This document shows, in pieces, positions 9,268 to 15,440 of a DNA stretch of 62,797 nucleotides; positions within the stretch are counted from its first letter, which is position 1; each line of letters begins with the position of its first letter. Made by a program: the position numbers and the translations under genes. This DNA comes from a virus. A model generated the notes under the pieces. That model searched no databases and was not told the origin of the DNA. It saw only the letters and a program-made list of their open reading frames with translations. The DNA lies in IMG/VR virus record IMGVR_UViG_3300025410_000589, positions 1 through 62,797 of that record. The stretch is one strand, 5' to 3'.

Positions 9268-10602
9268 ATGTTTAAGTTTAAAGATTTTCTAACGGAAGCG
9301 AAGAAAAAAGAAGAAGATGATTTTAAAACAGGCGATTCTGCTGGTAAACTTTTTGAATTACTTAAAGCCAGAGAACAAAATGGCGGAACGTTTCCCGAAT
9401 CTCACAGAGTTGAAGGCAAAACACCAACTGATATTCATAACAAGATGGCTGCTAAAATGTTTGGTGATGAATATGAAAAACATCCACAATATAAAAATCT
9501 TGTTAAAACAGCACAAATTGCTGCAAAAGCAAACGATACTTTCAACCAATCAGAACATGGTCATGATGTTAAGAAAGGTTATCAGAGAGTCGCATGGACA
9601 TCTCAACCAGCAGATCATCAAAAAGAAACAGGTCATGAAGATCCAAATTCTGTAGCCGATAGTATCCCGACATTAAGTCATGGCGCTATGATTGCGCATT
9701 CTGACAAATTAACAGGTAAAGGTCAATCAGTCAACTATAAGAATCCAGGTTCTAAGACTATGGAGATGTTGGCTCAGACTAGTTTAAAAAAACATACTGA
9801 ACCTCATGCAAAATTGTTAAAGGACAAAAAGTTAACGAGTGGCGAAGAAGGTCATAATCAATACAAAGCATTAAGAGATTCTGATAATCCAGAAGATCAA
9901 GAAACAGCAGCTTCAGTAAAGAAATCGGCTGATGTAGTCAACCAAAAATTTGCTAAAGATATACATGCTGGTCTGTTGGCTCAACAGGCTAGAGATGCTC
10001 AAAATGGTACTAATGAATTGAGAGATACTATCGTTAAAGCAGTAGCTCCTAAGACTCACCTTAAGACAGTCGTTACTCATACTGAAGTCGATAATCATGG
10101 TAATCATGCGCATACTAAAGTTTATGACTTGCACGATCACGTCAACCAATACTTAAATAATTTCGAAAATTTACACGTAGATCCAGTCCACAAACAAGGG
10201 CAATCTTCAGTCACAGTTTATGGTCATCATAAAAAAACTGGTAAAAGAATGAGATTGATGGGTCTTTCAGTTTATTCTGGGGGTAGACCAACAACCATTT
10301 CTCCTAGAGGCGCCATAACTCTTCCTAGCGAGAATCATCCTGATGTTGAATATACTAATCATCATATAGTTGGCGCTAATGGTGAACATCAAACAAATAC
10401 TCCTGTTAAACAGAAACATTCTGTAGAAAAACCAGTAGAACAAAAGAAACCAAAAACAAGAGAACCAGGCCCAAGAGCTTTATCGAGTATCGTAAAGCCA
10501 AGACCTAAAATTGTTACTAATCAAGAACAGAAACAACAGAAAACCAACAACAGCAGACAATCATCAATTGGTGGTAAGAATTTTTATGGTGAATCAGAAT
10601 GA
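9268..10602 (+). CDS. Putative capsid-packaged protein with T4-like targeting peptide
   Basis: This 444-residue, His/Lys/Gln-rich protein begins MFKFKDFLTE|A. That matches the ten-residue capsid-targeting sequence of T4 internal proteins, which the prohead protease cuts after [LI]-x-E. Four other proteins in this block share it. The rest is low in hydrophobics with many HKK, GHH and EH patches, a composition of DNA-associated internal proteins; no enzymatic motif recognised. The C-terminus (about 375-444) is basic and probably disordered. GAGGGTG precedes the ATG. Four-base overlap with the next gene. Confidence 0.7.
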   Translation: MFKFKDFLTEAKKKEEDDFKTGDSAGKLFELLKAREQNGGTFPESHRVEGKTPTDIHNKMAAKMFGDEYEKHPQYKNLVKTAQIAAKANDTFNQSEHGHDVKKGYQRVAWTSQPADHQKETGHEDPNSVADSIPTLSHGAMIAHSDKLTGKGQSVNYKNPGSKTMEMLAQTSLKKHTEPHAKLLKDKKLTSGEEGHNQYKALRDSDNPEDQETAASVKKSADVVNQKFAKDIHAGLLAQQARDAQNGTNELRDTIVKAVAPKTHLKTVVTHTEVDNHGNHAHTKVYDLHDHVNQYLNNFENLHVDPVHKQGQSSVTVYGHHKKTGKRMRLMGLSVYSGGRPTTISPRGAITLPSENHPDVEYTNHHIVGANGEHQTNTPVKQKHSVEKPVEQKKPKTREPGPRALSSIVKPRPKIVTNQEQKQQKTNNSRQSSIGGKNFYGESE

Positions 10603-12500
10603 TCAATTTCAGACAGTTTATCATTGAGGAAGAACAGCAAGAAGGCAAGAAACTCAAGCATCTAACTCACATCGAAGACATGCCAATCCATCATGGGCAT
10701 GAGGGTGTTGCTGCTGCCGATGCTATGCTTAGGGATACCCATAAGGCATTGACTGGCAAGGGAATGGGTAAGTCAACCATATCAACAAAATATGATGGCG
10801 CTCCTTCTATCGTTTATGGTCATCACCCAGAGACTGGTAAATTCTTTGTTGCTTCTAAGTCAGCTTTCAATAAAGATCCAAAGATAAACTATACACCTGA
10901 AGATGTAGAACGTAATCATGGTCACGCTCCAGGTCTGGTAGAAAAACTAAAGGCAGCATTAGAACATCTTCCTAAAGTCGCGCCCAAGAAAGGTGTGTTC
11001 CAGGGCGATGTTATGCATACGCCAAACGATGTTGAAGATCATGATGGTAAGTATCACTTTACGCCAAACACCATCAAGTATTCTGTAGGTAAAGATTCTA
11101 CTGAAGGTAAAAAGATTAAGAACTCGAAGTTCGGTATCGTTACTCATACTCAGTATGATGGTAAAGATATGGGTTCTATGAGCGCTGCTCCTATCAGTCA
11201 GGAAAACAAAGATAAGTTTAAGCAACATCCTGACGTACATCAGATCGACCCTGCGACGAATACGGAGGGTGCACACTATACTCCTGAGATGCAAAAAGAA
11301 TTTGCTAATCATATGGAGAATGCGAGACGCACCTACGCTAATATGGACCACTCAACCCCAGAAATCACAAAAGGCCATGAGATAAATCTTGAGGCTCATG
11401 TTAACGACATGGTTCGTAAGGGTGGCACTCCATCAGTCGAGGGTTTTATCTCACATCTTAAGAATAAGAAGATGAAAGATGTAGAGAAACTAAAATCCCC
11501 AGCTGGTAAAGAAAAGAAAGCCAGAGAGCATGACGATAACATAGGTCATGTCGAAGACAACAAAGAACACTTTAAGAATCTATTAGATCTACACAGTCAT
11601 CTACAGAAAGCCAAGAACGTTCTGGTTAGAGGATTGAATTCATCGGGTAGCCCATATGAGCATTCCGTTGACGGCAAGAAGACTGATCCCGAGGGATTCG
11701 TAATCAATCGTGGCGATCATATGTCTAAGCTGGTCAATCGCGATGAGTTCTCAAGAATGAACCTTCTTGGCGCTGGTAAGATGAGCAAGAGAAACGAACC
11801 AGCAAAAGAAGAAGATGATAAGCCAATCGTCTATGCGCATGGTAGAATGAATCCACCACATGCTGGCCATGAAGCTGTGATCAATAAAGTCCATGAGCTT
11901 GCTAATCAACAGGGTGCAGATCATAAGGTCGTATTGACTCATACTCAGGATCCTGAGAAGAATCCACTATCACCACAAGATAAGCTGGCTCATGCTAAGA
12001 AACTATTCCCAAAGACAAACTTCGGTCTATCGGATGACGAGCACCCAACACTAATAGAACAGCTTGCTAAACTAAACAAGGCTGGCCATAAGAAACTGAC
12101 AATGGTTGCTGGCGATGATCGCGTAGAGGGTTATAAAAAACTATTGAACGATCGCAACGGTAAAGATTTTGATTTTAAAAAGATTGATGTAGTATCGGCT
12201 GGTGGTCGAGATCCAGACTCTGAGGGCGTTGAGGGTCTTTCGGCTTCAAAGATGAGAGACCATGCTATCAACGGTCGTGCTAAAGAATTCGCTGCTGGGC
12301 TACCAAAAGGAACAAGCCCAGAACATGCTAAACAATTGATGCAAGATACAGCCAAGGGAATGGATATTCCTATCACTCCAAGCACTCATCCTGTTACTCT
12401 TAAACGTCATGCTCTAAGAAATGATCCGATCGGCCATGCTGCTCAGAAAGAGTTAAATAGAAGAGCTGCCGAAAAAGTAATGAGTAAGAAGAAAAAATGA
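10599..12500 (+). CDS. Packaged ligase-like / HxGH nucleotidyltransferase fusion
   Basis: This 633-residue protein starts MINFRQFIIE|E, a capsid-targeting-like peptide. Residues about 20-390 show motifs of the DNA/RNA ligase nucleotidyltransferase superfamily: motif I KYDG (64-67, Lys64 the likely nucleotide acceptor), a motif III-like FQGDVM (134-139), motif IV EGFVINR (365-371) and a Lys at 377 near motif V. Residues about 409-555 form a second, cytidylyltransferase/NMN-adenylyltransferase-like domain with HAGH (421-424) and LSASKMR (548-554 region), the counterpart of the ISSTxxR motif. Fusion of two nucleotidyl-transfer domains in a likely injected protein is striking. Substrates are unknown. 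Confidence 0.75.
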   Translation: MINFRQFIIEEEQQEGKKLKHLTHIEDMPIHHGHEGVAAADAMLRDTHKALTGKGMGKSTISTKYDGAPSIVYGHHPETGKFFVASKSAFNKDPKINYTPEDVERNHGHAPGLVEKLKAALEHLPKVAPKKGVFQGDVMHTPNDVEDHDGKYHFTPNTIKYSVGKDSTEGKKIKNSKFGIVTHTQYDGKDMGSMSAAPISQENKDKFKQHPDVHQIDPATNTEGAHYTPEMQKEFANHMENARRTYANMDHSTPEITKGHEINLEAHVNDMVRKGGTPSVEGFISHLKNKKMKDVEKLKSPAGKEKKAREHDDNIGHVEDNKEHFKNLLDLHSHLQKAKNVLVRGLNSSGSPYEHSVDGKKTDPEGFVINRGDHMSKLVNRDEFSRMNLLGAGKMSKRNEPAKEEDDKPIVYAHGRMNPPHAGHEAVINKVHELANQQGADHKVVLTHTQDPEKNPLSPQDKLAHAKKLFPKTNFGLSDDEHPTLIEQLAKLNKAGHKKLTMVAGDDRVEGYKKLLNDRNGKDFDFKKIDVVSAGGRDPDSEGVEGLSASKMRDHAINGRAKEFAAGLPKGTSPEHAKQLMQDTAKGMDIPITPSTHPVTLKRHALRNDPIGHAAQKELNRRAAEKVMSKKKK

Positions 12501-14650: not shown

Positions 14651-14817
14651 TGAAAACTTTTAAACAATTTGTCTCAGAATTAACTACGCCAGTAAGCACT
14701 ACTGGCAAGAGACAGACTGTGCATATGAAGACTGGCCCTGCTCGCGACATGACTGGTAAGATAATCCATACTCCAATATTCAAGAGTGCAAGCTCAAGAA
14801 GTGGTGGTGGAAAATGA
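14650..14817 (+). CDS. Short protein with capsid-targeting-like N-terminus
   Basis: A 55-residue reading frame coupled on both sides (TAATG before, ATGA after). It begins MKTFKQFVSE, nearly the T4 internal-protein targeting peptide MKTYQEFIAE, although the residue three before the predicted cut is Val rather than Leu/Ile. The rest is basic (GKRQTVHMKTG, KSASSRSGGGK). It may be a small DNA-packaged internal protein. Confidence 0.65.
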   Translation: MKTFKQFVSELTTPVSTTGKRQTVHMKTGPARDMTGKIIHTPIFKSASSRSGGGK

Positions 14818-15440
14818 AAACGTTCCTTCAGTATCTAGAAGAGTCAAGAAGAGGGACTCATCACTACGTAGATATTGACGATACACTGTTCCATACTACT
14901 GCCAAGATTGGTGTTAAAGATCAACATGGTAAAATCTATAAGAGATTGAGTAATAGCGAATTTAATACCCATGAATTACCAAAAGGTCATTCGTATGATT
15001 TTGCTGAGTTTAGAGACGCTGATAAATTCTCAAAAGAATCTAAACCCATCAATCCGATGATATCTAGAGTTAAGAAGATAGCAGATAATATTAAGAAACA
15101 CCCAAACAGTAAGGTGCATCTATTGACTGCTAGAGCTGATTTTGATGACAGAGAAAAGTTTCTTGATACGTTCCGTAAACATGGTTTAAATATGAATGAT
15201 ATACATGTCCACCGTGTAGGTAATGTACCTGGGAATGAATCACCTGCTAAGAAAAAAGCCGATCTTATTCGCCAACATCTACATAAGTTTGGTAATAAGA
15301 AGGTAGTGATGTATGACGATAGTAAAGCTAATCTTAAAGCATTGCTAAATATGAAGAAGGAACACCCTGATGTGAATTTTTCTGCATTTCATGTTGGGCC
15401 ACATGGGGAAATGACACCACATAAAGATGGAGATAAATGA
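14814..15440 (+). CDS. HAD-family phosphatase with capsid-targeting-like N-terminus
   Basis: This 208-residue protein begins MKTFLQYLEE|S, matching the targeting peptide with an L-x-E cut. The HAD nucleophile motif VDIDDTLF follows at 18-25, motif II HLLTAR at about 102-107, then a Lys-rich helix and KKVVMYDDSKANL as motif IV. The fold resembles acid phosphatases and the 3'-phosphatase domain of T4 polynucleotide kinase. If cut and packaged, it would be delivered with the DNA. Substrate unknown. Confidence 0.75.
   Translation: MKTFLQYLEESRRGTHHYVDIDDTLFHTTAKIGVKDQHGKIYKRLSNSEFNTHELPKGHSYDFAEFRDADKFSKESKPINPMISRVKKIADNIKKHPNSKVHLLTARADFDDREKFLDTFRKHGLNMNDIHVHRVGNVPGNESPAKKKADLIRQHLHKFGNKKVVMYDDSKANLKALLNMKKEHPDVNFSAFHVGPHGEMTPHKDGDK

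Follow-up and report, generated by a model that had tools for sequence, protein, structure and literature searches.

A predicted ligase-like domain of family DUF6267 fused to a HIGH-superfamily adenylyltransferase domain in phage, with a likely head-delivered role

In phage T4, internal proteins are brought into the head by a short capsid-targeting sequence at their N terminus (PMC3012670, PMC5694885). Phage RNA ligases, for their part, are accompanied by enzymes that heal ends, such as kinases and phosphatases (reviewed in PMC7824862). Here, we describe a gene that bears on both themes. It lies in a 62,797-nucleotide stretch of viral DNA (positions 1 to 62,797 of IMG/VR record IMGVR_UViG_3300025410_000589; hereafter, the window) and joins, in one protein, a DUF6267 domain to a HIGH-superfamily adenylyltransferase domain. 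As modeled here, DUF6267 is a distinct, previously unrecognized ligase-like family that falls outside of Rnl1 and Rnl2. DUF6267 (PF19782; PHROG 455) has been a family label only, to which we add a predicted fold, motifs, partners, and a start peptide. Literature searches found no paper naming DUF6267 and no papers for ‘cytitidyltransferase,’ and PMC9503650 does not mention DUF6267; the parts of PMC9503650 and PMC7824862 that treat phage NadM/NadR and RNA ligases do not describe the family or its fusion. What is new is the occurrence of known superfamilies in an unrecognized family, a recurrent fusion for which no report was found, and a likely head-delivered role.

An earlier note on the window, made from its letters, had placed ligase motifs and the HAGH and LSASKMR motifs in one protein with a capsid-targeting-like start. 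The gene is indeed a single open reading frame (ORF), and the motif residues are conserved family-wide (Table 1). The protein is a full-length member of DUF6267 in Pfam (residues 20-389, E 5e-96), and its residues 413-507 weakly match a cytidylyltransferase-like family. In PHROGs, residues 10-388 correspond to phrog_455, and a ‘cytidyltransferase’ family covers residues 400-589 (E 1e-55); phrog_455 (764 positions), which has no assigned function, itself spans both domains. At the level of sequence, KYDG, FQGDVM, EGFVINR, HAGH, and LSASKMR are not chance matches. We considered whether errors in sequencing or assembly had created the fusion and rejected this, since an identical protein of 633 amino acids (100% identity) is encoded on another contig of IMG/VR (L001) and other phages, including the cultured S-PM2, have separate fusions.

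Table 1. Positions in the window of the fused gene, its parts, and other features discussed in the text.
Feature	Position	Strand	Basis
Whole fused gene, 633 amino acids, ATG start	10599..12500	+	Single ORF; family matches
Capsid-targeting-like sequence MINFRQFIIE, T4-type, residues 1-10	10599..10628	+	Start-pattern match
DUF6267 domain, residues 20-389, predicted RNA-ligase-like covalent nucleotidyltransferase fold	10656..11765	+	PF19782; AlphaFold2; VIA-align
Motif I KYDG, residues 64-67, predicted nucleotidyl-accepting Lys64	10788..10799	+	K64, D66, G67 invariant in 69/69
Motif III FQGDVM, residues 134-139, D137 replacing usual Glu	10998..11015	+	D137 invariant in 69/69
Helical insertion between motifs IIIa and IV, residues 229-347	11283..11639	+	AlphaFold2 secondary structure; T4 Rnl2 sequence
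Motif IV EGFVINR, residues 365-371	11691..11711	+	E365, G366, V368 invariant in 69/69
Motif V KLVNR, K377 and R381 invariant, second Lys of usual KxK absent	11727..11741	+	69-row alignment
HIGH-superfamily adenylyltransferase domain (predicted), residues 408-587	11820..12359	+	AlphaFold2 pLDDT 88.9; VIA-align
HAGH motif, residues 421-424; conserved GR...P..xGH begins at G415-R416	11859..11870	+	R416, P419, H424 invariant in 48 rows
LSASKMR motif, residues 547-553, counterpart of SGTxIR of nicotinamide mononucleotide adenylyltransferase (NMNAT)	12237..12257	+	S548 invariant, R553 at least 90% in 48 rows
Partner gene, upstream and overlapping, 444 amino acids, capsid-targeting-like start MFKFKDFLTEAKK	9268..10602	+	Start-pattern scan; locus comparison
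HAD phosphatase-like partner, 208 amino acids, DIDDT, capsid-targeting-like start MKTFLQYLEES	14814..15440	+	phrog_415 ‘polynucleotide kinase,’ E 7e-8
Permuted tmRNA, alphaproteobacterial type, tag ANDNAPIAMALAA	62136-62535	+	Rfam alpha_tmRNA, 131 bits

The DUF6267 domain was modeled with AlphaFold2 from an alignment of 69 sequences, comprising the window protein and IMG/VR relatives that were 34-55% identical to it, and the model was confident (pLDDT 92.5, pTM 0.89). Comparison with VIA-align placed the Naegleria RNA ligase NgrRnl first (Z 9.1, root-mean-square deviation 3.8, 187 residues aligned), followed by the fungal tRNA ligase Trl1 (Z 7.9), T4 Rnl2 (7.9), and T4 Rnl1 (7.6). All 50 of the matches listed were ligases. 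Among these, RNA ligases occupied ranks 1-22, with Z values of 9.1-7.3 compared to 7.0 or less for DNA ligases, and mRNA capping enzymes were absent from the 50, a result that does not of itself exclude that family. Searches of DUF6267 against PDB sequences with phmmer and hmmsearch returned chance matches only and no ligase; the case for a ligase is therefore made by predicted structure and motifs.

Ten residues (K64, D66, G67, K87, D137, E365, G366, V368, K377, and R381) are identical in all 69 rows, and motifs I, Ia (K87), III (D137), IIIa (G179...H183), IV (E365-G-x-V), and V (K377) are present in order with invariant residues. Motif I reads KxDGxP in the family. The nine annotated DUF6267 proteins of cultured phages keep the motif residues with few changes and retain K64, E365-G366, and K377; in syn9, motif III has QAD instead of QGD. 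The predicted core fold and the order of the motifs are thus like those of ATP-dependent RNA ligases (NgrRnl, T4 Rnl2, T4 Rnl1, and Trl1). DUF6267 differs from these enzymes in its fused HIGH-type domain and in having accessory helices between motifs IIIa and IV rather than after motif V, the IIIa-IV interval being about 100 amino acids longer than in T4 Rnl2. In addition, an N-terminal HxxHxED occupies the position of KYSSLEN in Rnl2, and in the model a single helix (residues 25-51) separates the start peptide from motif I. Lys64 is likely to carry out covalent nucleotidyl transfer.

The C-terminal domain, also confidently modeled (pLDDT 88.9), had NadD as its best Foldseek match (E 1e-6). 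VIA-align Z values were 14.8 for phosphopantetheine adenylyltransferase (PPAT), 13.4 for NadM, 13.2 for archaeal NMNAT, and approximately 13 for NadD, and these scores for the predicted structure do not separate a PPAT from an NMNAT substrate. A Rossmann-like fold is predicted, and both parts of the (H/T)xGH and S-x(4)-R signature are present; fold and signature motifs are those of the NMN adenylyltransferases (NadM, NadR, and NadD) and of PPAT/CoaD. Likely counterparts of MthNMNAT Arg11 and Arg136 are conserved. LSASKMR aligns with SGTEIR of MJ0541, and in alignments GR..P..xGH and SGTxxR are archaeal NMNAT-type motifs, which we take to fit archaeal NMNAT better than PPAT. The NadR NMN-transferase model was matched by 25 of the 48 rows, and the family models as a whole (NadR, NadM, and NadD matches) weakly favor NMNAT. 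Because models and motifs both point this way, ‘cytidylyltransferase’ is probably the wrong everyday name for this domain; whether its substrate is NMN is an evenly balanced call. Unlike NMNAT and PPAT, many relatives have a TxGH consensus instead of HxGH, and the domain has an extra conserved AGxRDPDAEG loop and a ligase-like partner. Both domain assignments of the earlier note are thus borne out by structure prediction, with each model matching the fold proposed for it, and by the conserved motifs. We consider it nearly certain that the two domains have their predicted folds (ligase-like and NMNAT/PPAT, respectively).

To evaluate the N-terminal sequence, the pattern M..[FY]..[FYL][ILV].E was tested at any possible start of each ORF. 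The strict pattern was found in 56 of 86 DUF6267 ORFs as compared to 30 of 691 other ORFs of the same loci, a contrast that is not a p-value because the loci are related. It was also found in 21 of 64 adenylyltransferase ORFs, and the shuffled expectation was approximately 0.4. Within the window, which has 228 ORFs that reach 60 amino acids, only those at 9268, 10599, and 14814 matched. T4 IPII and IPIII, which start with MKTYQEFIAE, match as well; T4 IPI does not, and the sensitivity of the pattern is therefore imperfect. The start that the earlier note had singled out is thus real and conserved.

Homologs of the C-terminal domain have been detected in purified virions of cyanophages S-SCSM1, S-SZBM1, and S-CREM2 (PMC9602691, PMC9146016, PMC10665884). 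The virion-found S-SCSM1 NMNAT starts with MKSFLQFLKEA and the virion-found S-SZBM1 cytidylyltransferase with MRFRQFIIEA; the DUF6267 protein of S-SZBM1 has no such start and is absent from the published virion table. This concordance between start and virion content is small and in the expected direction. That the protein is ‘probably injected,’ as first proposed, gains from the conserved T4-type start and from the homologs in three cyanophage virions, while the virion finding covers neither this protein nor any DUF6267 domain. We regard delivery of the fused protein in the head as likely. The accompanying comparison to T4 Alt is fair for the presumed route and timing, which are shared with the T4 internal proteins, and fails for activity: Alt is an ADP-ribosyltransferase and T4 cargo includes a restriction inhibitor, whereas the cargo here is a ligase-like/adenylyltransferase fusion.

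Relatives were identified by tblastn in 530 of 50,697 phage records, mostly of cyanophages, with 291 records holding most of the protein. A genome scan identified 35 loci in prokaryote genomes, nearly all on contigs of metagenome-assembled genomes; these are probably viral contigs that were binned with them. Most phages carry the two parts as neighboring genes rather than as a fusion. In the annotated records of Melnitz, HTVC008M, P-RSM6, DLP6, C48C1, S-SZBM1, and syn9, each part has its own gene and the order is unchanged, the genes being either adjacent or set apart by at most two small ones. The parts are also split in an IMG/VR relative that is 52% identical (L002), where the genes overlap and each has a head-targeting-like start. 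The fused gene is carried by the cultured S-PM2, and nine further fused genes were found among 80 additional IMG/VR loci. The fused state requires at least six changes on a 78-row tree, which indicates that fusion recurs. Four fusions were not labeled as fused on that tree (L071, L089, L075, and L092; Pfam E from 1e-5 to 0.06 for the HIGH domain). A HIGH-type domain is C-terminal to DUF6267 in L071, whereas L089, L075, and L092 have other HIGH-type domains that are N-terminal, the opposite order, and in L092 (3009-6140) a 1043-amino-acid chain combines a HIGH-type nucleotidyltransferase, HAD, and DUF6267. A second adenylyltransferase paralog, with a start like MKDYKQLLKELPSKT, occurs near DUF6267 in L025, L032, L033, L035, L029, L036, L044, and L045, and some phages thus carry two copies.

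Two kinds of candidate end-processing proteins recur beside DUF6267. A HAD protein of the PNK-phosphatase PHROG was identified in 16 relatives, adjoining DUF6267 in 15 and fused in L092. The HAD profile had no match in the PDB, and its assignment as a polynucleotide phosphatase therefore follows the PHROG label. A P-loop kinase of Zeta-toxin/AAA_33/polynucleotide kinase (PNK) type was identified in 17 relatives, free-standing in two and fused behind the adenylyltransferase in 15; in HTVC008M, the kinase gene lies between the DUF6267 and adenylyltransferase genes. By sequence, its PDB relatives are adenylate kinase, Zeta toxin, bacterial Pnkp, and seryl-tRNA kinase. The recurrence of a ligase-like domain beside a PNK/Zeta-like kinase or HAD phosphatase resembles kinase-phosphatase-ligase RNA repair sets (T4 Pnkp and Rnl1; bacterial Pnkp/Rnl/Hen1). 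The difference is that the constant partner here is the HIGH adenylyltransferase, that kinase and phosphatase are optional, and that many members have a capsid-targeting start.

In L013 and L076, DUF6267 is immediately preceded by relatives of the 444-amino-acid protein encoded at 9268..10602, and these contain DPNSDAD...LSxKYGK, which is PD-(D/E)XK-nuclease-like by eye and altered in the window copy. The immediate upstream neighbors of DUF6267 in HTVC008M (L005, 6914-7972) and Melnitz (L004, 6932-8017) share TPKTD...SLKxGxAQLMSGG, also nuclease-like by eye, and the Melnitz gene has a capsid-targeting-like start. Neither the 9268..10602 protein nor the upstream partners match a Pfam family, and the nuclease-like pattern is therefore one seen by eye only.

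The fused gene sits in a replication block, after the genes for DNA polymerase, UvsX, and helicase, and the surrounding replication genes are T4-like (DNA polymerase, UvsX, DnaB-type helicase, primase, and NrdA/B). In L002 (89-1406), the DnaB-type helicase gene looks intein-interrupted (CLALNTQVF... to ...ILTHNSS). The alphaproteobacterial type of the permuted tmRNA in the window suggests an alphaproteobacterial host.

As a tentative reading, we propose that the fused protein is a virion-delivered enzyme of nucleic-acid end repair, acting most likely on RNA; the sealing of RNA ends as its main role is held with the same reserve. The 10-residue start would likely route the protein to the core of the prohead, as in T4 internal proteins, and would likely be removed by the prohead protease after E10, an expected (I/L)xE site, the protein then entering the cell alongside the DNA. 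DUF6267 would charge Lys64 with AMP (or GMP) drawn from a nucleotide, pass it to a 5′-phosphate end, and join that end to a 3′-OH in the manner of T4 Rnl1 and Rnl2. The adenylyltransferase domain would move AMP from ATP onto a partner that ends in a phosphate, with NMN the most likely one judging from the motifs; this would sustain NAD+ in the face of defenses that cleave tRNAs and deplete NAD+. Kinase and HAD phosphatase domains, where they adjoin or are fused, would prepare the ends. The gain would be repair ahead of any phage gene expression, perhaps of damage from host defenses. Function is inferred from fold throughout, and gene context favors end repair over the other proposed activities while leaving room for them. 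A fuller proposal is more speculative still: DUF6267, which is found unannotated in the genomes of hundreds of marine T4-like phages, would be a novel RNA ligase family packaged in the head, and with a fused or neighboring adenylyltransferase (plus kinase/phosphatase) it would make up a repair kit that is injected in the first minute to counter tRNA-cutting and NAD-draining defenses.

Several observations weigh against this end-repair reading. The activity of DUF6267 is a predicted one, and a Z of about 9 to an RNA ligase is modest. Foldseek by itself was weak, with DNA ligase IV as its best match (E 0.05), ligases of several kinds as the other leading rows, and vaccinia and human capping chains appearing weakly. 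Compared to ATP-dependent RNA ligases, motif III has Asp where Glu is usual, and motif V has a single lysine with valine at K+2 in 62 of 69 rows and the invariant R381 at K+4. The second lysine (KxK) is usual in the covalent nucleotidyltransferase superfamily and is not universal. No C-terminal OB-fold or helical domain follows motif V, and hhalign detected no sequence homology to T4 Rnl2, its alignment being confined to motif IV and its surroundings (prob 0.2). The missing lysine weakens a claim to a classical ligase, and this, together with the other departures from textbook ligases and the lack of profile similarity to Rnl2 outside motif IV, is why we refer to DUF6267 as a distinct ligase-like family. 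The kinase is present in some loci only, and its P-loop reads GGPGSGKD rather than GKT/S in fused copies (L031, L034, L040, L042, L048, L052, L054, L055, L030, and L043), with GKT/S retained in the free-standing copies (L005 and L083); the fused kinase may thus be inactive, its activity lost after fusion. Approximately one-quarter of DUF6267 proteins, including several from cultured cyanophages, are without a capsid-targeting start. Direct virion evidence concerns homologs of the C-terminal domain, and the authors of the virion proteomics allow for carry-over of such proteins from lysates (PMC9602691, PMC10665884).

The same evidence can be arranged around NAD, with the C-terminal NMN adenylyltransferase as the working part, brought in by the virion so as to restore NAD+ in the face of NAD-depleting defenses or to tune host metabolism, and with the ligase-like domain using the NAD+ so made (as AMP donor, with NMN recycled) or merely binding nucleotides. 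The NMNAT-type motifs and the NadR, NadM, and NadD model matches are consistent with this, as is the adenylyltransferase-kinase fusion, which has the domain order of NadR; NAD regulation was proposed by the authors of the published virion proteomics, and phage NadM/NadR salvage is described by Iyer et al. (PMC9503650). However, PPAT scores as high as NMNAT for the C-terminal domain, RNA ligases outrank LigA as structural matches, and the kinase resembles Zeta, PNK, and adenylate kinases, with no NadR-type kinase family reported among its matches. The DUF6267 model also shows no separate N-terminal NMN-binding (Ia) domain as in NAD+-dependent ligases, although no search aimed at Ia was made. 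We consider this arrangement unlikely. Less probable again is a role on DNA, in which a packaged ligase would act on the phage DNA after injection, sealing its nicks or ends, and the HAD phosphatase and the nuclease-like upstream protein would process ends. The superfamily includes DNA ligases, which ranked first, if weakly, in Foldseek; the gene lies in the replication block; and TPKTD...SLK in the HTVC008M and Melnitz upstream neighbors is PD-(D/E)XK-like by eye, without Pfam support. Against this, RNA ligases stand above DNA ligases by Z among the matches listed, and the OB domain that DNA ligases need is absent after motif V.

Two further explanations dispense with ligation. The KxDGxP domain could guanylylate or adenylylate host RNA ends or proteins, in a capping-like or AMPylation-like manner, which would accord with its motif I, the missing ligase appendages, and a motif V unlike that of classical ligases. 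We regard this as improbable, since kinase and phosphatase partners suit end repair better and the structural matches listed are all ligases, even if capping chains occur weakly in Foldseek. Finally, a lysine-rich protein of packaged type, with relatives whose kinases have altered P-loops, might be an ordinary internal head or scaffold protein that retains enzyme folds without catalytic use. The invariance of all five nucleotidyltransferase motif residues across 69 divergent sequences, which non-catalytic folds rarely keep, makes this highly improbable.

Collectively, the link to ligases through structure, to adenylyltransferases through repeated fusion, and to the capsid through a conserved start turns an anonymous and widespread gene into a testable candidate enzyme with a lysine, Lys64, to mutate. 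If the protein is an injected repair enzyme, then marine phages would arrive with RNA repair pre-loaded, and the view of tRNA-cleaving and NAD-depleting defenses in the ocean would change.

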